The notes under the pieces were generated by a model. The model had not been told where the DNA came from, made no database searches, and saw only the letters and a program-made list of their open reading frames with translations. DNA of 27,331 bases from Chloroflexota bacterium (GTDB lineage Bacteria > Chloroflexota > Limnocylindria > Limnocylindrales > CSP1-4). The DNA lies in contig JAKAMV010000032.1 of assembly GCA_021812735.1 (NCBI GenBank), positions 1 through 27,331 on the forward strand, in the 5' to 3' direction. Positions within the stretch are counted from its first letter, which is position 1, and each line of letters opens with the position of its first letter. Position numbers and translations under genes: made by a program. Shown in pieces: positions 2,847-27,331 of this stretch.

Positions 2847-3884
2847 ATGCACGTCGGACTGGTTGGACTCGGCCGCATGGGGGCCAACATGGCTCGCCGC
2901 TGGCGCCGCAACGGCCACACGGTGATCGGCTACGCCCGCACCGCGGCCACGGTGGACGGCCTGGTCGCCGACGGGGCGATCGACGCCGGCGCCCACTCGC
3001 TGGCGGACCTCGTGGCGCAGCTGCCCGCGCCGCGCGTGCTGTGGGTGATGGTGCCGGCGGCGTCCGTGGACGCGACGCTGGCGGACCTGTCCCCGCTCCT
3101 CGCGGCAGGCGACATCGTGATCGACGGCGGCAACTCCTGGTACCGCGACGACATCCGCCGCGCGAGGGAGCTCGCGCCCCGGGGCATCGCGTACGTGGAC
3201 TGCGGCACCAGCGGCGGCACGCACGGCCTCGAGCGCGGCTACTGCCTGATGGTGGGCGGCCCGGCCGACGCGGTGGCGACGCTCGACCCGATCCTGCGGG
3301 CCCTCGCCCCGGGCATGGCGCGCGCCGAGCGGACGCCCGGCCGCACCGGCACGCCGACCGCCGCCGAGGAGGGCTACCTCCACTGCGGGCCGTCGGGCGC
3401 GGGCCACTTCGTCAAGATGGTCCACAACGGCATCGAGTACGGCGTCATGGCCGCGTACGCGGAGGGGTTCAACATCCTCCACCACGCGAACGCGGGCGCG
3501 GCCGGCCGCGAGGTCAACGCGGAGACGAGCCCGCTCGCGGAGCCGGAGCTCTACCAGTACGACCTCGACCTCCCCGCGATCGCGGAGGTCTGGCGCCGCG
3601 GCAGCGTGATCTCGTCGTGGCTCCTCGACCTCACCGCGCAGGCGATGGTCGCCGACCCCGGCCTCGAGACGTTCGGCGGCACGGTGGCGGACTCCGGCGA
3701 GGGCCGCTGGACCAGCATCGCCGCGATCGAGACCTCGACGCCGGCACCGGTGCTGACCACCGCGCTGTACTCGCGCTTCGCCTCGCGCGGCGAGGAGACG
3801 TACGGGAACAAGGTCCTCTCGGCGATGCGCTGGGGCTTCGGCGGGCACGCCGAGCTCAAGAAGGAGCCCGGCGAGGCGAAGTAG
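2847..3884 (+). CDS. gnd: 6-phosphogluconate dehydrogenase, decarboxylating (short form)
   Basis: A 345-residue enzyme that oxidises and decarboxylates 6-phosphogluconate to ribulose 5-phosphate with NAD(P)+ reduction. The N-terminal Rossmann motif is GLVGLGRMGANMARR. The substrate motif GTSGGTHGLERG appears near residue 120, and the catalytic Lys is in HFVKMVHNGIEYG. The C-terminal SGEGRWT segment fits the short (GndA/YqeC) subgroup, which is often NAD-dependent, although cofactor preference is not provable here. ATG 2847 has TGGAGG about ten bases upstream. The gene stands alone before the hydrogenase operon. It is a source of NAD(P)H that the hydrogenase could interact with metabolically, but no operon link is visible. 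Confidence 0.9.
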   Translation: MHVGLVGLGRMGANMARRWRRNGHTVIGYARTAATVDGLVADGAIDAGAHSLADLVAQLPAPRVLWVMVPAASVDATLADLSPLLAAGDIVIDGGNSWYRDDIRRARELAPRGIAYVDCGTSGGTHGLERGYCLMVGGPADAVATLDPILRALAPGMARAERTPGRTGTPTAAEEGYLHCGPSGAGHFVKMVHNGIEYGVMAAYAEGFNILHHANAGAAGREVNAETSPLAEPELYQYDLDLPAIAEVWRRGSVISSWLLDLTAQAMVADPGLETFGGTVADSGEGRWTSIAAIETSTPAPVLTTALYSRFASRGEETYGNKVLSAMRWGFGGHAELKKEPGEAK

Positions 3885-4176: not shown

Positions 4177-4707
4177 ATGTCCAACGCACTGGCGATGGCG
4201 CTGCCCCGGGTGGAGGACCAGGACCTGATCGACCGGATCATCGGCGACCAGGCGGGCCGACCCGGAGCCCTGCTCGGCATCCTGGAGAAGCTGCAGGACG
4301 CCAACCGGCACAAGTACCTGCCCATGGAGTCGCTCGAGTACGTGGCGCTCCGGACCGGCGTGCCGCAGTCACAGGTGTACGGGGTCGCGACGTTCTACGC
4401 GCTGTTCAACCTGGACCCGCAGGGCACCCACACGGTGGCGATCTGCCGCGGCACCGCCTGCCACACGCGAGGCTCCCGGGCGCTGCTGGAGCGGGTGAAG
4501 CTGCAGCTGGGCCTCGAGGAGTCAGGGACGGCCGACAAGCTGACGCTCACCACCCCGGACCGCAAGTTCACCGTCCGCACCGTGGCCTGCTTCGGCCAGT
4601 GCGCGCTGGCTCCCGTGGTCGAGATCGACCACGCCATCCGCGGCCACGTGAAAGAACAGGCGCTCATCCGCGAGGTTGACCTGCTGCGGAAGGAAGCCGC
4701 CCGATGA
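4177..4707 (+). CDS. hoxE: NAD-linked hydrogenase diaphorase subunit HoxE (NuoE-like)
   Basis: A 176-residue subunit of the NuoE/24-kDa family, carrying a thioredoxin-fold [2Fe-2S] cluster that relays electrons around the flavin subunit. The N-terminal helical part contains LPMESLEYVALRTGVP and VYGVATFYALF, as in NuoE. The cluster ligands are all present: CX4C in CRGTAC and CX3C in CFGQC. ATG 4177 has CTGGAGG at the right distance; an upstream in-frame extension is open but has no family similarity. The stop overlaps the hoxF start as ATGA. In group 3d hydrogenases HoxE forms part of the soluble diaphorase HoxEFU. The symbol is given from operon order and family. Confidence 0.9.
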   Translation: MSNALAMALPRVEDQDLIDRIIGDQAGRPGALLGILEKLQDANRHKYLPMESLEYVALRTGVPQSQVYGVATFYALFNLDPQGTHTVAICRGTACHTRGSRALLERVKLQLGLEESGTADKLTLTTPDRKFTVRTVACFGQCALAPVVEIDHAIRGHVKEQALIREVDLLRKEAAR

Positions 4708-7700
4708 GGATCCAGGACCTCGCCGCCTTCGCCGCCGCCCGCGAGGCGGGCCTGGCCAAGCTGCTGCCGTCCCGGCCGCGGATCGCCGTCGGCATGGGCA
4801 CCTGCGGGGCCGGCAACGGCGCAGAGGCGGTCTACCACGCGTTCCGGGACGAGATCGACACCAACGGGCTCGACATCTCGCTGGCGCCGGTCGGCTGCTT
4901 CGGATTCTGCGCCGAGGAGCCGCTGGTCAACGTGTGGCTGCCGGGCCGTCCGCTGCTGGTCCTCCGGCGCGTGCAGCCCAACCACGTCGGCGCCATCCTC
5001 GACGCGGTCGCCCACGGCGGCCTGCCGCCGGCCGAGACGGTCCTGTGCAAGATCGAGGAGTGGGACCACCTGACCGGGCACCTCAAGTACGGCGCCGGCT
5101 ACCCCGACGTGCCCTCCTGGGACCAGGTCCCCTTCTTCCACGGCCAGGTCAAGATCGTCCTGCGCAACTGCGGGCTGATCAACCCCGACGACATCGAGGA
5201 ATACATCGGCGTCGGCGGGTACCAGGCCCTGTACAAGGTCCTGATCGACCAGAACCCGACCGCCGTCCTGGAGCAGATGAAGGCGTCCAAGCTCCGGGGC
5301 CGCGGCGGGGCGGGCTTCCTGACCGGCAACAAGTGGGAGTTCCTGGCCAAGGCGGCCGGGCCCGAGAAGTACCTCATCTGCAACGCGGACGAGGGCGATC
5401 CGGGCGCCTACATGAACCGCAACGAGATCGAGTCGGACCCCCACTCCCTCATCGAGGGCATGGTGATCGCCGGGTATGTCACCGGCGCCCCGCGCGGAAT
5501 CGTCTACGTCCGCGCCGAGTACCCGCTCGCTGTGCTCCGCCTCGAGCAGGCCATCGAGCAGGCGCGCGCCTACGGGATCCTCGGCGACAACGTCCTGGGC
5601 CGCGGCTTCGCGTTCGACCTGGACATGGTCGAGGGCGCCGGCGCCTTCGTCTGCGGCGAGGAGACCGCCCTGATCGCCTCGCTCGAGGGCAAGGCCGGCC
5701 GGCCGCGCACCCGCCCGCCGTTCCCCGCCCAGAAGGGCCTCAACGGCAAGCCCACCAACATCAACAACGTCGAGACCTGGTACAACGTCGCGCCGATCGT
5801 CGCCAAGGGCCCCGCGTGGTTCACGGAGACCGGGTCGCCCAAGAGCTCGGGCACCAAGGTGTTCAGCCTGGTTGGGAAAGTGCGCAACACGGGTCTCGTG
5901 GAGATGCCGCTGGGCACGCCGCTGGCCACGTTCATCTACGACATCGGCGAGGGCGGCACCAACGGCCGCGACATCAAGGCGGTCCAGACCGGCGGTCCGT
6001 CCGGCGGCTGCATCCCGGCCGACATGTTCGACACGCCGGTGGATTACGAGACCCTGGCCCAGCTGGGCTCGATCATGGGCTCCGGCGGCATGGTGGTCAT
6101 GGACGCCGACAACTGCATGGTGGACGTCGCGCGGTACTTCATCGAGTTCACGCACTCGGAGAGCTGCGGCAAGTGCGTCCCCTGCCGCGTGGGCCTCGAC
6201 AAGGCGCTCCGGATGCTCAACCGGTTCACGGAGGGCACCGCGAGCCTCGACGACCTCGGCCTGCTCGACGAGCTGTGCCGCATGGTGCGGGACACATCCC
6301 TGTGCGCCCTCGGCGGCAGCGCCCCCAACCCCGTCCTCACGAGCCTGCGCCACTTCCGGCACGAGTTCGAGGACCACATCGTCGCCAAGCGCTGCCGCGC
6401 CGGCGTGTGCCAGGACCTGGCGCTCTCGCCCTGCGAGAACTCCTGCCCGCTGCACATGAACATCCCGCGCTTCCTGCAGCTGTACAACGAGGGCCGGCTC
6501 GAGGACGCGTTCCTCTCGGTCGTCATGGACAACCCGCTGCCGGCCTCGACCGGGCGCGTGTGCCAGCACCCCTGCGACGACCGCTGTCGCCGGGCGGGCA
6601 TCGACGAGCCGGTCAACATGCGCGACGTGCACCGGCTCATCGCCGACGAGATCCTGCTCAGCGACAAGTTCGAGCCGATGGTGGCCCGGGTCCGTGAGCA
6701 GCGGCTCGAGCCCACCGGGCGCGAGATCGCGGTCGTGGGCGCCGGTCCGACCGGTCTCGCCTGCGCCTACTACCTGGCGCTGTTCGGCCACAGCGTGGTG
6801 GTCTACGACTCGCGGCCCGCGGCTGGCGGCATGCTCCGCTACGCGCTGCCGGAGTACCGCCTGCCCAAGCACGTGCTCGACAGGGAGGTCGAGCTGATCG
6901 AGCGGATGGGCGTCCGCTTCATGTTCAACACCAGCGTCGGCACGGACATCTCGCTCAACGACCTCGCGCGCCAGTATGACGCCGTGTTCATGGCGATCGG
7001 CACCTGGAAGGAGACGTGGGTCTACCTGCCGGGCACCGAGCTGACGGGCGTGCTCCCAGCGCTGCCGTTCCTCGAGGCCGCCTCGCGCAAGGAGGAGGTG
7101 CCCGTCGGCAGCAAGGTCGTGGTCATCGGCGGCGGCAACGCGGCCATCGACTCGGCCCGCACGGCGCGGCGTCTGGGCGCCGAGGTCACCGTCGTGTACC
7201 GGCGCGAGCGCAAGGACATGCCGGCCATCCCAGAGGAGATCGAGGCCGCCGAGGACGAGGGCGTCAAGGTGGCATACCTGCTCTCGCCGCACCGGATCGT
7301 GGGCGACAAGAACGGTCAAGTCCGCGCCCTCGAGGCGGTGGTCACCAAGCCGGGCGAGTTCGACACGTCGGGCCGCCGCCGGCCGGTGCCCACCGACGAG
7401 GTCATCCGACTCGAGTGCGACACCGTGATCCTCGCCGTGGGCGAGGGCGTCGATCCCGACTTCTGCCGCGCCTCCGGCCTCACGCTCAACGAGGACGGGA
7501 CCATCATGGCGGACCGCTACACGCTCGAGACGAGCCGCGAGCGCTTCTACGCGGGCGGCGACCTGGTCACGGGTGCCTCCAACGTGTCCAACGCGATGGG
7601 CCTGGGCAAGAAGGCCGCCCGGGAGATGGACCAGCGGCTGATGGGCCAAAAGCGGTTCCCGCAGCTGATCCCGGCGTTCGCCTACCGCATGGAGCCGCCG

Positions 7701-7859
7701 GAGACCCCGGCCGAGGTCGGGCGGCACGTGCCGCCCGAGGCGCCGGCCAGCGAACGCGTCAAGTCCTGCGCGGAGGTGTCGCTCGGCCTGACCCCGGCCG
7801 CCGCCCTCGCGGAGACGTCCCGCTGCCTTCGCTGCGACATCCGCAGCACCGAGAGGTAG
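4704..7859 (+). CDS. hoxF: HoxF-GltD fusion: NADH/FMN diaphorase with NADPH-type flavin module
   Basis: 1,051 residues, about twice the usual HoxF. In order: (1) a thioredoxin-like [2Fe-2S] domain, residues 25-100, with C34, C65 and C69, but Gly where the fourth Cys is expected; (2) a NuoF-type FMN/NADH domain with GRGGAGF near 200, CNADEGDPG, and CGEETALI near 317; (3) SLBB and N3-type cluster domain with C488, C491, C494 and C534; (4) from about 560, a GltD/NfnB-like part with Cys-rich segments (CRAGVCQ, CENSCP, CQHPCDDRC), FAD motif VVGAGPTGLA near 679, NAD(P) motif VVIGGGNAAID near 809 followed by YRRERKDMPA, and a final CLRCD. The GltD part is complete and in frame, with no sign of frameshift. 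The YRR segment is the one that binds the 2'-phosphate of NADPH in the family. It is the third-cofactor branch of the complex: NAD(H) at FMN, NADP(H) at FAD. The fused role is inference. Confidence 0.9.
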   Translation: MRIQDLAAFAAAREAGLAKLLPSRPRIAVGMGTCGAGNGAEAVYHAFRDEIDTNGLDISLAPVGCFGFCAEEPLVNVWLPGRPLLVLRRVQPNHVGAILDAVAHGGLPPAETVLCKIEEWDHLTGHLKYGAGYPDVPSWDQVPFFHGQVKIVLRNCGLINPDDIEEYIGVGGYQALYKVLIDQNPTAVLEQMKASKLRGRGGAGFLTGNKWEFLAKAAGPEKYLICNADEGDPGAYMNRNEIESDPHSLIEGMVIAGYVTGAPRGIVYVRAEYPLAVLRLEQAIEQARAYGILGDNVLGRGFAFDLDMVEGAGAFVCGEETALIASLEGKAGRPRTRPPFPAQKGLNGKPTNINNVETWYNVAPIVAKGPAWFTETGSPKSSGTKVFSLVGKVRNTGLVEMPLGTPLATFIYDIGEGGTNGRDIKAVQTGGPSGGCIPADMFDTPVDYETLAQLGSIMGSGGMVVMDADNCMVDVARYFIEFTHSESCGKCVPCRVGLDKALRMLNRFTEGTASLDDLGLLDELCRMVRDTSLCALGGSAPNPVLTSLRHFRHEFEDHIVAKRCRAGVCQDLALSPCENSCPLHMNIPRFLQLYNEGRLEDAFLSVVMDNPLPASTGRVCQHPCDDRCRRAGIDEPVNMRDVHRLIADEILLSDKFEPMVARVREQRLEPTGREIAVVGAGPTGLACAYYLALFGHSVVVYDSRPAAGGMLRYALPEYRLPKHVLDREVELIERMGVRFMFNTSVGTDISLNDLARQYDAVFMAIGTWKETWVYLPGTELTGVLPALPFLEAASRKEEVPVGSKVVVIGGGNAAIDSARTARRLGAEVTVVYRRERKDMPAIPEEIEAAEDEGVKVAYLLSPHRIVGDKNGQVRALEAVVTKPGEFDTSGRRRPVPTDEVIRLECDTVILAVGEGVDPDFCRASGLTLNEDGTIMADRYTLETSRERFYAGGDLVTGASNVSNAMGLGKKAAREMDQRLMGQKRFPQLIPAFAYRMEPPETPAEVGRHVPPEAPASERVKSCAEVSLGLTPAAALAETSRCLRCDIRSTER

Positions 7860-7868
7860 GAGATCGCC

Positions 7869-8576
7869 TTGGTCGAGAAGGTGAAGGTCCGCATCGACGG
7901 CGAGGTGATCGCGGCCACGGCAGGCCAGACCATCCTCGAGGTCGCGCGCGCCAACAGCAAGTACATCCCCGCCCTGTGCTACATGGAAGGCCTCAGCGCC
8001 ACCGGCGCGTGCCGGCTGTGCGTGGTCGAGGTGTCGGGCGTGGCCAAGCTGGTCCCCGCCTGCACCACGCCCGTCGCCGAGGGGCAGTCGGTTGTGACCT
8101 CCACGCCGCAGATCGAGTCGTATCGCAAGATCGCGCTCGAGCTGCTGTTCGCCGAGCGCAACCACGTGTGCGCCGTGTGCGTGTCCTCCGGGCACTGCGA
8201 GCTCCAGGCCTTGGCCCAGGAGCACGGCGTCACGCACGTCCGCTACCCGTACAGCTGCCCGCGCCTGCCGGTGGACACGACCCACCCGCGGTACGTCCTG
8301 GATCACAACCGCTGCATCCTGTGCGGCCGCTGCGTGCGCACCTGCGCCGAGATCGAGGGCGCCCACGTGTGGGACGTCGCCGGGCGAGGGATCGGGTCCC
8401 ATCTCGTGTCCGAGCTCCAGCGCCCCTGGGGCGAGGCCACCACCTGCACGAGCTGCGGCAAGTGCGTCCAGGCCTGCCCCACCGGCGCCATGGCCGAGAA
8501 GGGCTGGGCCGTGGAGGAGATGACCAAGCACAAGACCGTGGTCAGCCGTCTGACCTCGATGCGCGAGGGATCGTGA
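7869..8576 (+). CDS. hoxU: Hydrogenase diaphorase subunit HoxU (NuoG-N-terminal-like)
   Basis: A 235-residue iron-sulfur protein, the usual HoxU length. It starts with a ferredoxin-type [2Fe-2S] domain (CX10CX2C in CYMEGLSATGACRLC, last ligand in PACTTP). A His/Cys-ligated [4Fe-4S] site follows in NHVCAVCVSSGHCELQ, then two bacterial-ferredoxin [4Fe-4S] motifs, CILCGRCVRTC and CTSCGKCVQACP. It wires the hydrogenase dimer HoxYH to the flavin subunit. The start is TTG at 7869 with AGGAG (7858-7862) overlapping the hoxF stop. Its stop overlaps the hoxY start by one base. Confidence 0.93.
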   Translation: MVEKVKVRIDGEVIAATAGQTILEVARANSKYIPALCYMEGLSATGACRLCVVEVSGVAKLVPACTTPVAEGQSVVTSTPQIESYRKIALELLFAERNHVCAVCVSSGHCELQALAQEHGVTHVRYPYSCPRLPVDTTHPRYVLDHNRCILCGRCVRTCAEIEGAHVWDVAGRGIGSHLVSELQRPWGEATTCTSCGKCVQACPTGAMAEKGWAVEEMTKHKTVVSRLTSMREGS

Positions 8577-25226: not shown

Positions 25227-25267
25227 GATTGCGATGTTTATATATCGCAATCGCGCCGCCGTGTCAC
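25227..25267 (-). promoter_or_regulatory. Operator palindrome on the gntR promoter
   Basis: GATTGCGAT (25227-25235), eight bases and ATCGCAATC (25244-25252) form perfect 9-bp arms in an AT-rich island within very GC-rich DNA. On the minus strand GTGACA (25267-25262), 17 bp and TATATA (25244-25239) make a very good sigma-70 promoter toward gntR, and the palindrome covers its spacer and -10. It lies 27 bp before the DUF1638 start, so one site could repress both directions. Confidence 0.65.
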
Positions 25268-25278
25268 CGAGGACGATC

Positions 25279-26028
25279 GTGGCAGCACTCCCGCACAAGC
25301 CCCAGGTCCCCAGCACGCTCCCCTACGACCCGTCGCGGGTGAAGGTGATCGCCTGCGCCACCGTCATCGAGGAGATGGCGCCGAGGATGCCGCCGGAGAT
25401 GGCGCGCGAGGTCCTCGACTTCGGGCTCCACTTCCGGCCCGGCGGCCTGACGGTTGCGCTCCAGGAGGTCATCGACCGCTCGACCGGCTTCGACACGCTG
25501 CTCCTGGGGTACGGCCTGTGCTCGCGCGGCGTCGTGGGCCTGCGAGCCACCACGGCGCGCCTGGTCATCCCGCGCGTGGACGACTGCATCGCGATCTTCC
25601 TCGGCTCCCGCGGCGACTACACCGAGCAGCATGCGCAGGAGCCCGGCACCTACTACCTCACCAAGGGCTGGATCGAGGCGAAGGACTCGCCGCTCGACGG
25701 CCTGCACGACCTCGTCCCCAAGTACGGCGAGGCCAAGGCAGAGCGGATCATGCGGATCATGCTCAAGAACTACACGCGCATCGCGTTCATTGACACCGGC
25801 GCCTACGAGCTGGAGCACTACCGGGCCTACGCCCAGGAGAACGCCCGGCGCTTCGACCTGCGCTACGAGGAGATCGCGGGCAAGCCGGGCCTGGTGGAGA
25901 AGCTGCTCTACGGGCCGTGGGACGGGGAGTGCGTGGTGGTGGAGCCCGGCGGCACCGTGGAGTACGAGGCGTTCGTGACCGACGGCCACGTCCCGGCGGC
26001 AGGCCTCCCGGGGCTCAACCGTGCCTGA
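25279..26028 (+). CDS. DUF1638 protein of corrinoid methyltransferase loci
   Basis: A 249-residue protein with DUF1638 features: VIACATVIEEM at the start, LLGYGLCSRGVVGL, LVIPRVDDCIAIFLGSRGDY, GTYYLTKGWIE and IAFIDTGAYE. Conserved cysteines in VIAC, GLC and DDC suggest a metal or cofactor site, but function is unknown. In other genomes the family is often found beside MttB-type methyltransferases, corrinoid proteins and their activases, as here. An ATG at 25234 would begin inside the operator palindrome; GTG 25279 with GAGGA (25269-25273) is the better start and removes only non-conserved residues. It overlaps the activase gene by eight bases. Confidence 0.85.
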   Translation: MAALPHKPQVPSTLPYDPSRVKVIACATVIEEMAPRMPPEMAREVLDFGLHFRPGGLTVALQEVIDRSTGFDTLLLGYGLCSRGVVGLRATTARLVIPRVDDCIAIFLGSRGDYTEQHAQEPGTYYLTKGWIEAKDSPLDGLHDLVPKYGEAKAERIMRIMLKNYTRIAFIDTGAYELEHYRAYAQENARRFDLRYEEIAGKPGLVEKLLYGPWDGECVVVEPGGTVEYEAFVTDGHVPAAGLPGLNRA

Positions 26029-27331
26029 GCCGGCCGGCGCGCCCGGCCCCGCCGCCCCCGCCACGTTCGAGGTGGACTTCGAGCCGGCGGGCCGCCGCGT
26101 CCGGGTGGAGGCGGGCACGCAGCTGCTCGAGGCGGCCCGGTCCGCGGGGGTTGGCCTCGCGTCCGTGTGTGGCGGCGACGGGACCTGCGGCCGGTGCCGC
26201 GTCGTGGTGATGGAGGGCGTCCTGCCCGACCCGTCCGACGCCGACCGGCGCGCCCTCTCGCGCACCGAGATCGCCCACGGCGAGCGGCTCGCCTGCCGGG
26301 TGCCCGTGGCCAGCGACCTCAAGGTCCACATTCCCAAGGCGTCGCTCATCACGGACCAGCGCCTCCAGGTGACCGGCCCCAAGCGGACCGTGGCCGTGGA
26401 CCCGGCGGTCCGCGTGTACCGCGTGGCGGCAGAGCCGCCGACCCTCGCCGACGCGCGGTCGGACTTCGACCGCATCCTCGCCGCGGCGGCCACCGCGCAC
26501 GGCATCCGGCGGCTCGCCGCGGACCCGGTGGTGCTCTCGCAGCTGACCACCACCGTCCGGCGAACCGGCTGGGAAGTGGAGCTGCTGGCCCGCGGGCAGG
26601 ACCTCGTCGGCGTGCTGCCTCCTGGCCAGCATGCGGTCGGCCTGGCAGTGGACCTCGGCACCACCAAGATCGCCGGGTACCTGATCGACCTCGAGACGGG
26701 CGTCGAGCTGGCGGGCGAGGGGATCATGAATCCCCAGATCGCGTACGGCGAGGACGTCATCAGCCGACTCGCCTATGCGGTGCGCCAGCCGGGCGGCGCC
26801 GAGACGCTGGCGCGCGTTGTCCGCGAGGGCCTCGACGGCCTGGTCGGGACCATGTGCGAGCAGACCGGCGTCAACCGGGACCAGGTCGCCGAGGGCTGCA
26901 TCGTTGGCAACACCGCGATGCACCACCTGCTGCTGGGGCTGCCGGGGCGCCAGCTGTCCCAGGCGCCGTTCGTGGCGTCCACCTCCTCGCCGGTGGACGT
27001 TCGTGCCCGGGACCTCGGCATCCGAATCGCGCCCGACGCGCGCATCCACGTGCCGCCCAACATCGGCGGGTTCGTGGGCGCGGACCACGTGGCGATGATC
27101 CTGGGGGCGGACCTGGACCGGGTCGAGGCCGTCAAGATCGGCGTGGACATCGGCACCAACACCGAGATCGTGCTCCGCCGGCCGTCCATGGGGCACCTGG
27201 CGTCCACCTCCTGCGCGTCGGGCCCCGCCTTCGAGGGGGCCCACATCCGCGACGGCATGCGCGCGGCCACCGGCGCCATCGAGCGGGTGACGATGTTCGC
27301 CGACGGGCGCCTGCCGGAGGTCAAGACCATC
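26021..27331 (+). CDS. RACo-like corrinoid reductive activase (ferredoxin + DUF4445/ASKHA), cut by window end
   Basis: 437 residues are visible, open to the last base, so the C terminus is missing. The N-terminal plant-type [2Fe-2S] domain has C50, C56, C59 (CGGDGTCGRC) and C92 (ERLACRV). A linker region (about 105-205) is followed by an ASKHA ATPase fold from D211 (LAVDLGTTKIAGYL), with NPQIAYGEDVISRL, VGNTAMHHLLLGL, PPNIGGFVGADH, VDIGTNTEIVL and TSCASGPAFEGA, as in RACo/RamQ-type activators. These use ATP to reduce inactive Co(II) corrinoid back to Co(I). The start is GTG 26021, overlapping the DUF1638 stop. Its target is presumably the corrinoid protein encoded 1.7 kb to the left. Confidence 0.92.
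   Translation, partial: MPEPAGAPGPAAPATFEVDFEPAGRRVRVEAGTQLLEAARSAGVGLASVCGGDGTCGRCRVVVMEGVLPDPSDADRRALSRTEIAHGERLACRVPVASDLKVHIPKASLITDQRLQVTGPKRTVAVDPAVRVYRVAAEPPTLADARSDFDRILAAAATAHGIRRLAADPVVLSQLTTTVRRTGWEVELLARGQDLVGVLPPGQHAVGLAVDLGTTKIAGYLIDLETGVELAGEGIMNPQIAYGEDVISRLAYAVRQPGGAETLARVVREGLDGLVGTMCEQTGVNRDQVAEGCIVGNTAMHHLLLGLPGRQLSQAPFVASTSSPVDVRARDLGIRIAPDARIHVPPNIGGFVGADHVAMILGADLDRVEAVKIGVDIGTNTEIVLRRPSMGHLASTSCASGPAFEGAHIRDGMRAATGAIERVTMFADGRLPEVKTI

Follow-up and report, generated by a model that had tools for sequence, protein, structure and literature searches.

The stretch of DNA analysed here (the window, 27,331 nucleotides) is contig JAKAMV010000032.1 of assembly GCA_021812735.1, a metagenome-assembled genome (MAG) of the Chloroflexota order Limnocylindrales, and it carries a five-gene operon on the plus strand in which hydC and a fusion gene, hydB::gltD, precede the [NiFe] hydrogenase genes hoxU, hoxY and hoxH (Table 1). 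The end of hydC overlaps the start of the fusion gene (ATGA) and hoxU and hoxY overlap by one base, in line with the overlapping operon described in an initial annotation that was made from the sequence alone. That annotation proposed a group 3d-like hydrogenase whose NADH subunit, taken for HoxF, is joined in one frame to a complete GltD module. The one-frame fusion was found as described: four Pfam domains follow each other without a stop, Complex1_51K (residues 193-363, 4e-42) and NADH_4Fe-4S (474-558, 4e-31) in the HydB half, and Fer4_20 (561-650, 7e-19) and Pyr_redox_2 (674-966, 4e-32) in the GltD half. The motifs for the FAD (flavin adenine dinucleotide) site (GAGPTG, 679-684) and the NAD(P) site (GGGN, 809-812, followed by YRRERKDMPA, 832-841) also lie at the places indicated. 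HoxH has the L1 and L2 motifs of the [NiFe] type (RICGICPVSH and DPCLSCSTH) and Pfam finds no Fe_hyd domain in HoxU; the H2 site is that of a [NiFe] HoxH, not that of an [FeFe] BfuA. Taken together, the domains support the three predicted sites, one for H2, one for FMN (flavin mononucleotide)/NAD(H) and one of the NADPH type with a second flavin.

Table 1. Genes of the hydrogenase operon and the two halves of the fusion, with positions in the window.
Feature	Position	Strand	Support
hydC (hoxE-like), NuoE-type [2Fe-2S] subunit, 176 residues, Cys 90, 95, 138, 142	4177..4707	+	Pfam 2Fe-2S_thioredx 4e-37
fusion gene hydB::gltD, 1051 residues	4704..7859	+	ATG at 4704, no internal stop
HydB/NuoF half, residues 1-572, FMN/NAD(H) site	4704..6419	+	phmmer 620 bits to A. 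mobile HydB 7t2r_B
GltD half, residues 573-1051	6420..7859	+	phmmer 387 bits to 9bov_A
hoxU, 235 residues, short form of HydA/NuoG N-terminus	7869..8576	+	NCBIfam HoxU equivalog 342.4 bits
hoxY, [NiFe] hydrogenase small subunit, 176 residues	8576..9106	+	Pfam Oxidored_q6 1.6e-30
hoxH, [NiFe] hydrogenase large subunit, 488 residues	9114..10580	+	Pfam NiFeSe_Hases 8.6e-31

The subunits of this operon differ in ancestry. Maximum-likelihood trees were calculated per subunit, and approximately unbiased (AU) tests were applied to groups that were named after the first tree had been seen. The HoxH of the window falls in a clade of cyanobacterial (Acaryochloris) and Chloroflexota HoxH (100/100), and HoxU and HoxY are likewise placed in the group 3d clade (100/100 and 100/98, respectively); the score of HoxU lies above the NCBIfam equivalog cut-off of 333 bits. 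The group 3d assignment, for which the initial annotation had suggested a HoxH tree, thus stands for these three subunits, but not for the fused subunit and its upstream neighbour, which are of the Bfu (HydBC) type. The upstream gene had been taken for hoxE. Its product remains below the HoxE equivalog cut-off (123.8 versus 224 bits), is placed outside the HoxE clade (AU p 0.0135) and is HydC-like. The HydB half groups with other fusions, and its nearest relatives outside this group come from an Omnitrophota MAG (L085) and a Porphyromonadaceae MAG of the Bacteroidota (L086; L and G numbers denote loci and genomes) in a nine-row clade (100/95). HydC shows the same grouping with the same nearest outside relatives (nine-row clade, 98/84). 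The HydA neighbours at both loci are [FeFe]-hydrogenases (Fe_hyd_lg_C, 3e-104 and 8e-97). As judged by sequence, these placements show a chimera, with HoxU, HoxY and HoxH of group 3d and with HydC and the HydB half from Bfu-type modules of the [FeFe]-hydrogenase kind. In our reading, a group 3d hydrogenase would have exchanged its HoxE-HoxF front end for the HydC-HydB::GltD of [FeFe]-type enzymes. Three other readings were considered and rejected. That the fused subunit is simply a HoxF of group 3d with an added tail does not agree with its NuoF half, which carries B2 ligands and is placed outside the HoxF clade. Direct kinship with HydABCSL of A. mobile, the top match in the PDB, is contradicted by the HoxH tree, in which the window protein joins the cyanobacterial and Chloroflexota HoxH and the A. 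mobile HydL stands outside the 3d clade. Finally, the idea that the HydB halves of the 21 fusions all go back to one origin was rejected with an AU p of 0.0004 against one clade.

The ligand residues of the HydB half tell of the same relationship. The cysteines of cluster B1 are found at positions 488, 491, 494 and 534. For the bifurcating HydB, Feng et al. (PMC8880783) reported the B2 ligands C438, C476 (Cys or Thr elsewhere), H525, C531 and C536, and by alignment these map onto C471, T509, H558, C564 and C569 of the fusion. The nearest solved relatives in a phmmer search are A. mobile HydB (620 bits), T. sibiricus NfnABC, C. saccharolyticus Nfn-ABC, A. woodii HydB and StnB, all of them bifurcating proteins (PDB entries include 9n5u, 9bov and 7q4v). 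In a first alignment of 50 sequences, the B2 set C, H, C, C is kept in all 21 fusion rows and is missing in seven of the eight unfused group 3d HoxF proteins, the compared operons being those of Acaryochloris (L058), Lichenicola (L059), C. necator (L060) and Chloroflexota (L062, L068, L074, L076, L077). The sole HoxF that retains it (L068) comes from the window's own family. These ligands and the tree assign the NuoF half to the HydB (Bfu) type and not to HoxF, for which it was first taken. A second set, taken from named genomes and possibly sharing genomes with the first, consisted of 42 fusion and 45 unfused rows, and all 42 fusion rows keep the B2 set. Of the other characteristic sites of the Bfu type, the C1 ligands of BfuC were recognised in HydC as a CX4C and CX3C pattern only. 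The N-terminal B5 [2Fe-2S] site of BfuB is incomplete, since two of its four cysteines are aligned (C65, C69), together with a shifted C34. In StnB two of the four B5 cysteines are likewise replaced (by Gly), and this protein is nevertheless bifurcating. Two kinds of unfused proteins deserve mention here. HoxF-clade proteins with the B2 ligands and without B3/B4 or GltD occur in the window's family (L068, 1186-2889, in G264; L066 in G379), and in two methanogen MAGs an unfused NuoF without B2 ligands is nested among the fusions in the tree (L121, 2-1771; L124, 6974-8701), where the GltD half has possibly been lost.

In the phmmer alignment, the similarity to HydB ends at fusion residue 572, which corresponds to residue 539 of the 597 residues of HydB. 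The HydB domain beyond this point holds clusters B3 and B4, the proposed exit to ferredoxin (PMC8880783), and Pfam finds no Fer4 domain of the B3/B4 type in the fusion. Going by the alignment, the GltD module stands in the place of the ferredoxin-interacting domain of HydB. Its first cluster cysteine (C577) lies only eight residues beyond the last B2 ligand (C569), and the further ligands are C581, C620, C624, C628 and H643, with a C-terminal RCLRC (C1041/C1044). StnC has the same cluster layout, and its RCLEC also follows the GltD fold. In terms of similarity, the half scores 387 bits against C. saccharolyticus Nfn-ABC (9bov_A), 336 against StnC and 321 against NfnL. The five cysteines C577 to C628 are kept in 21/21 and 42/42 fusion rows, and residue 643 is H, K or R. 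Such conservation argues against an ordinary NAD-coupled Hox enzyme with a structural or vestigial GltD half, a reading to which the typical group 3d HoxUYH would lend itself and which we regard as very improbable.

Residue 643 aligns with a glutamate of NfnL (E126) and a lysine of StnC (K170), the ligand position of the FAD-proximal [4Fe-4S] cluster. Among the 21 fusion rows the position is taken by His in all six members of the window clade, by Arg in two others and by Lys in the other 13, and in the second set we counted 35 Lys and 7 His. The histidine is found at loci L081-L086 and L088, and is common to the window clade and its [FeFe] relatives. Mutants of K170 in StnC retained half of the activity with Arg and suffered a severe loss with Ala or Cys, and the FAD of StnC was concluded to be non-bifurcating (PMC10482914). 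Because the equivalent of E126 is His in the window clade and Lys in most other fusions, and since the StnC FAD with its Lys is non-bifurcating, the FAD of the fusion would be a plain NADP(H) site and not a bifurcating flavin. By its ligands this flavin is closer to the non-bifurcating FAD of Stn and Nfn-ABC than to that of NfnB. The alternative of GltD as a bifurcating NfnB was rejected: NfnAB has an NfnA partner and a Glu cluster ligand, whereas in the window His occupies the Glu position and the operon has no NfnA gene (a genome-wide search for NfnA was not made).

The fusion itself is not new, as it was published in 2024 for the [FeFe]-hydrogenases of Hydrogenedentota (PMC11406978). In the sub-type I BfuB of these enzymes B3/B4 are replaced by a DPD_II and a FAD/NAD(P) domain, and the coexistence of FAD and FMN-FeS centres in one BfuABC was stated never to have been reported before. 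The architecture is the same as that found here (Fer4_20, i.e. dihydropyrimidine dehydrogenase domain II, plus Pyr_redox_2), but the H2 site is the [FeFe] BfuA in Hydrogenedentota and the group 3d [NiFe] HoxUYH in the window. The accessible text of that paper does not mention such a fusion in a [NiFe] enzyme, and no description of a GltD fusion in a [NiFe] hydrogenase was found in the open-access literature; subscription papers were largely outside this search, which makes it weak evidence of absence. The earlier statement that no hydrogenase of this form has been characterised therefore survives with respect to [NiFe] enzymes, where no description was found, and needs revision with respect to [FeFe] enzymes, for which the fusion had been published. 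The present analysis adds that the fusion is used in a [NiFe] hydrogenase of group 3d and that this enzyme is of chimeric ancestry; it further adds the conservation of the B2 set, the His/Lys position among the cluster ligands and the wide distribution.

Other known systems share parts of this design. HydABCSL of A. mobile, which among solved structures is closest in sequence to the HydB half as well as to HoxH, has the HydBC core with [NiFe] subunits and the B1/B2 ligands, but unlike the window enzyme it has a long HydA, a B3/B4 ferredoxin domain and no GltD (PMC8880783). The initial annotation had also pointed to the Sporomusa-type transhydrogenase. StnABC and Nfn-ABC indeed carry a GltD-type NADPH module on a HydBC core (PMC10482914, PMC7483475, PMC9304861), but the module resides within the NuoG-like subunit and not in NuoF/HydB, B3/B4 are kept, there is no hydrogenase, and Lys is present at the FAD-proximal cluster instead of the His of residue 643. 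The group 3d Hox hydrogenases of cyanobacteria, Chloroflexota and C. necator have HoxU, HoxY, HoxH and the gene order in common with the window, and differ from it by HoxE/HoxF in the place of a Bfu-type HydC/HydB plus GltD.

The distribution of the fusion was studied at three levels. In a protein search at least 7,999 candidates were scored (all E<=0.001), and the 120 matches listed have 100% query coverage, 80-100% identity and mostly 1051 residues, two of them originating from Limnocylindrales MAGs. Within the window's family (107 genomes, fusion matches at E<=1e-200) 25 genomes have a match: 17 contain the whole query in one frame, 7 a part and one (G429) two frames. In this last genome the fusion consists of two adjacent frames split near the domain junction (G429:C17:39335-42426; residues 1-568 and 589-1051), either by natural fission or by a frameshift. 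A HoxH at least 77% identical is located on the same contig in 22 of the 25 genomes, on another contig in two, and was not found in one (G419). A second HoxH, 53-58% identical, occurs in 14 of the 25. The source is a draft MAG (72% complete, 317 contigs), and an assembly or annotation artefact would be conceivable on that account. It is refuted by the recurrence of an identical gene, junction and neighbours across many independent genomes. Chance or an assembly accident was rejected as well, given the whole-length frames in 17 of the 25 family matches and the same one-frame gene in the matches listed, and we give the artefact practically no credence.

Outside the family, 400 sampled Chloroflexota genomes were screened with two candidates scored per genome and a cut-off of 1e-150, so that the counts are lower bounds: at least 19 genomes have a near-whole match and at least two more a truncated one. 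The partners of the fusion vary within the phylum. They are group 3d [NiFe] subunits in the window's family, a [NiFe] enzyme with a long HydA at L045-L048, L053 and L056, a 3c-like [NiFe] enzyme at L044 and, according to Pfam, molybdopterin (formate-dehydrogenase-like) subunits at L049, L050 and L052. Long HydA-type neighbours stand beside the fusion at L051, L054 and L055, and no catalytic partner was recognised beside it at L043. In a scan of named genomes, the best 80 of 583 relatives included 42 loci with the fusion in one frame, in Acidobacteria, Alphaproteobacteria, Bacteroidota, Omnitrophota, Firmicutes (e.g. Moorella thermoacetica DSM 21394, L094), Desulfobacterales, Planctomycetota, Spirochaetales and others; L127 and L143 are without a one-frame fusion. 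An [FeFe] partner was confirmed for six of nine tested neighbours (L085, L086, L092, L094, L104, L112), and the other three are a [NiFe] enzyme (L088), a molybdopterin-domain HydA of a [NiFe] operon (L113) and one without an assignment (L087). The complete window-type operon is present in an alphaproteobacterial MAG (Ancalomicrobiaceae, L084), with subunits 54-72% identical, and in an Acidobacteria MAG (L082) the contig stops within hoxU after a close fusion.

Several loci in these samples show unusual arrangements. Two NuoE/NuoF (HydC/HydB) pairs precede one HydA and hydrogenase at L063 (46-10107, minus strand), L075 (2-9144, minus strand), L053 (2792-13469, minus strand) and L112 (5810-14279), and at the last two, one of the pairs contains the GltD fusion. 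It would be unusual for a single hydrogenase to have two NADH-type modules. At L039 (7095-9868, G306) a protein of 659 residues that resembles an Fe-S subunit by eye is encoded directly upstream of hydC, along with another, distant frame that resembles a [NiFe] small subunit (26-28% to HoxY); this suggests that a second hydrogenase-like operon adjoins the window-type operon. In a Balneolales MAG (L088, 5277-15967) the fusion has as its neighbour a [NiFe] large subunit of 431 residues that is very divergent, and it stands directly before an unfused group 3d operon.

With a probability of roughly 55%, we consider the operon to encode a soluble chimeric [NiFe] hydrogenase that reversibly links H2, NAD(H) and NADP(H), with the FAD as a plain NADP(H) site. 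Starting from the observed domain content, ligand residues, operon structure, ancestry and conservation, we infer the cofactor occupancy, electron path, NADP specificity and reversibility of such an enzyme as follows. The H2 part and the wire would be formed by HoxH, HoxY and HoxU of the group 3d type, and the NADH end by HydC and HydB of the Bfu type, of which the ferredoxin-docking domain would be swapped for the covalently attached GltD. Electrons from H2 would pass from the NiFe site over the HoxY cluster, the HoxU clusters and B1 to the FMN, for hydride exchange with NAD(H), a path in keeping with the established group 3d/HydABCSL architecture. From the position of the clusters, a second path may run from the FMN via the HydC [2Fe-2S] cluster and the B2 region through the two [4Fe-4S] clusters of GltD to the FAD and NADP(H).

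A number of observations weigh against this proposal. In the first sample, the AU test did not separate the HydB half significantly from the HoxF clade (p 0.0747); it did so in a larger sample with more relatives (p 0.0002), and all these AU p values are weakened because the groups were named after the first tree had been seen. In Acidobacteria L083 (6451-9459) neither hoxY nor hoxH is present in the remaining 2.3 kb past hydC, the fusion and hoxU, where unrelated frames are found, so the front end does not always adjoin its hydrogenase; loss, rearrangement or misassembly may each explain this. The probable NADP specificity is read from an NADP-type motif only. Moreover, the structure model of the whole protein is middling, with a predicted local distance difference test (pLDDT) of 69 and a predicted template modelling score (pTM) of 0.47; its NuoF part is poor (Foldseek root-mean-square deviation about 20 A), and its GltD half alone agrees well with a known structure (3.1 A over 424 columns to NfnL). 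The B2 set is also present in 39 of the 45 unfused rows of the second set, mostly proteins of HydB length, so that these ligands alone prove nothing, and others have modelled the B2-type site of T. maritima HydB as zinc (mentioned in PMC8880783). The HydB of S. wolfei, which lacks B3/B4, is non-bifurcating (cited in PMC11406978). Since unfused rows carry the B2 set and the S. wolfei protein does not bifurcate, the set, as far as sequence comparison goes, marks HydB-type ancestry, and neither the fusion as such nor bifurcation by itself.

The S. wolfei protein fits with a non-bifurcating dual-specificity hydrogenase, in which the FMN serves NAD(H) and the FAD serves NADP(H) independently on one wire without thermodynamic coupling. 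The Stn-like and hence non-bifurcating GltD-FAD would agree with this, as would the absence of the B2 set from most of the unfused 3d HoxF proteins and the judgement that the group 3d enzymes of Hydrogenedentota are probably incapable of bifurcation (PMC11406978). That every examined fusion row has kept the B2 set, which most unfused 3d HoxF proteins have lost, speaks against it, and we regard the uncoupled enzyme as possible but somewhat unlikely. A coupled version of the chimeric hydrogenase is rather doubtful as well. Here H2 would drive bifurcation with NADP+ on GltD as the low-potential acceptor (2 H2 + NAD+ + NADP+ -> NADH + NADPH). From the physiological potentials of NAD (-280 mV) and NADP (-380 mV; PMC9304861, Table 1) we computed lower limits of the H2 pressure of about 3 Pa for the reduction of NAD+ and about 7.2 kPa for that of NADP+, and a balance of the coupled reaction near 150 Pa. 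If the enzyme bifurcates, NADPH formation would thus need about 150 Pa of H2 instead of about 7.2 kPa, and the reverse reaction would allow NADH to produce H2 at pressures exceeding the roughly 3 Pa to which it is limited by itself. This gain is a possible reason for coupling and not evidence of it. Finally, the core might bifurcate to a ferredoxin that docks on the HydC or GltD clusters, with GltD adding an NADPH donor or acceptor, in effect a Stn merged with a hydrogenase. The GltD module of Stn feeds a HydBC core (PMC10482914), Synechocystis HoxEFU reacts with ferredoxin (PMC11647496), and the cyanobacterial HoxF of L058 (554 residues) is without a B3/B4 domain. However, the proposed ferredoxin-binding domain is exactly the part that the fusion lacks, and we find such a four-substrate enzyme quite unlikely.

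With respect to the host, a soil bacterium, the maturation gene for HypD was found in the genome and no match to COX1 was (72% complete). COX1 is present in 72 of the 107 family genomes versus 7 of the 25 that bear the fusion, in raw counts uncorrected for relatedness and incompleteness. A gene of the 6-phosphogluconate dehydrogenase type precedes the operon on the same strand (window 2847-3884), and at the far end of the window (25234-27331) the gene for a DUF1638 protein stands before that of a RACo-type reductive activator of corrinoid proteins, a hint that the host may have a corrinoid-dependent one-carbon metabolism.

Fusion enzymes of this kind are probably missed by surveys, because, where a name is given, they are mostly called NADH-quinone oxidoreductase subunit F (among the matches listed) and the published definition of the Bfu family requires a ferredoxin domain in BfuB (IPR017896). 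If our reading is right, one enzyme would connect the pools of H2, NADH and NADPH in uncultured members of the Chloroflexota and in others, and the HydBC-GltD front end would be interchangeable between [FeFe] and [NiFe] hydrogenases. The chimera would then offer a natural test of whether the FMN-FeS core can use a low-potential partner other than ferredoxin, and of the role of the B2 site once the clusters that usually come next to it are gone.

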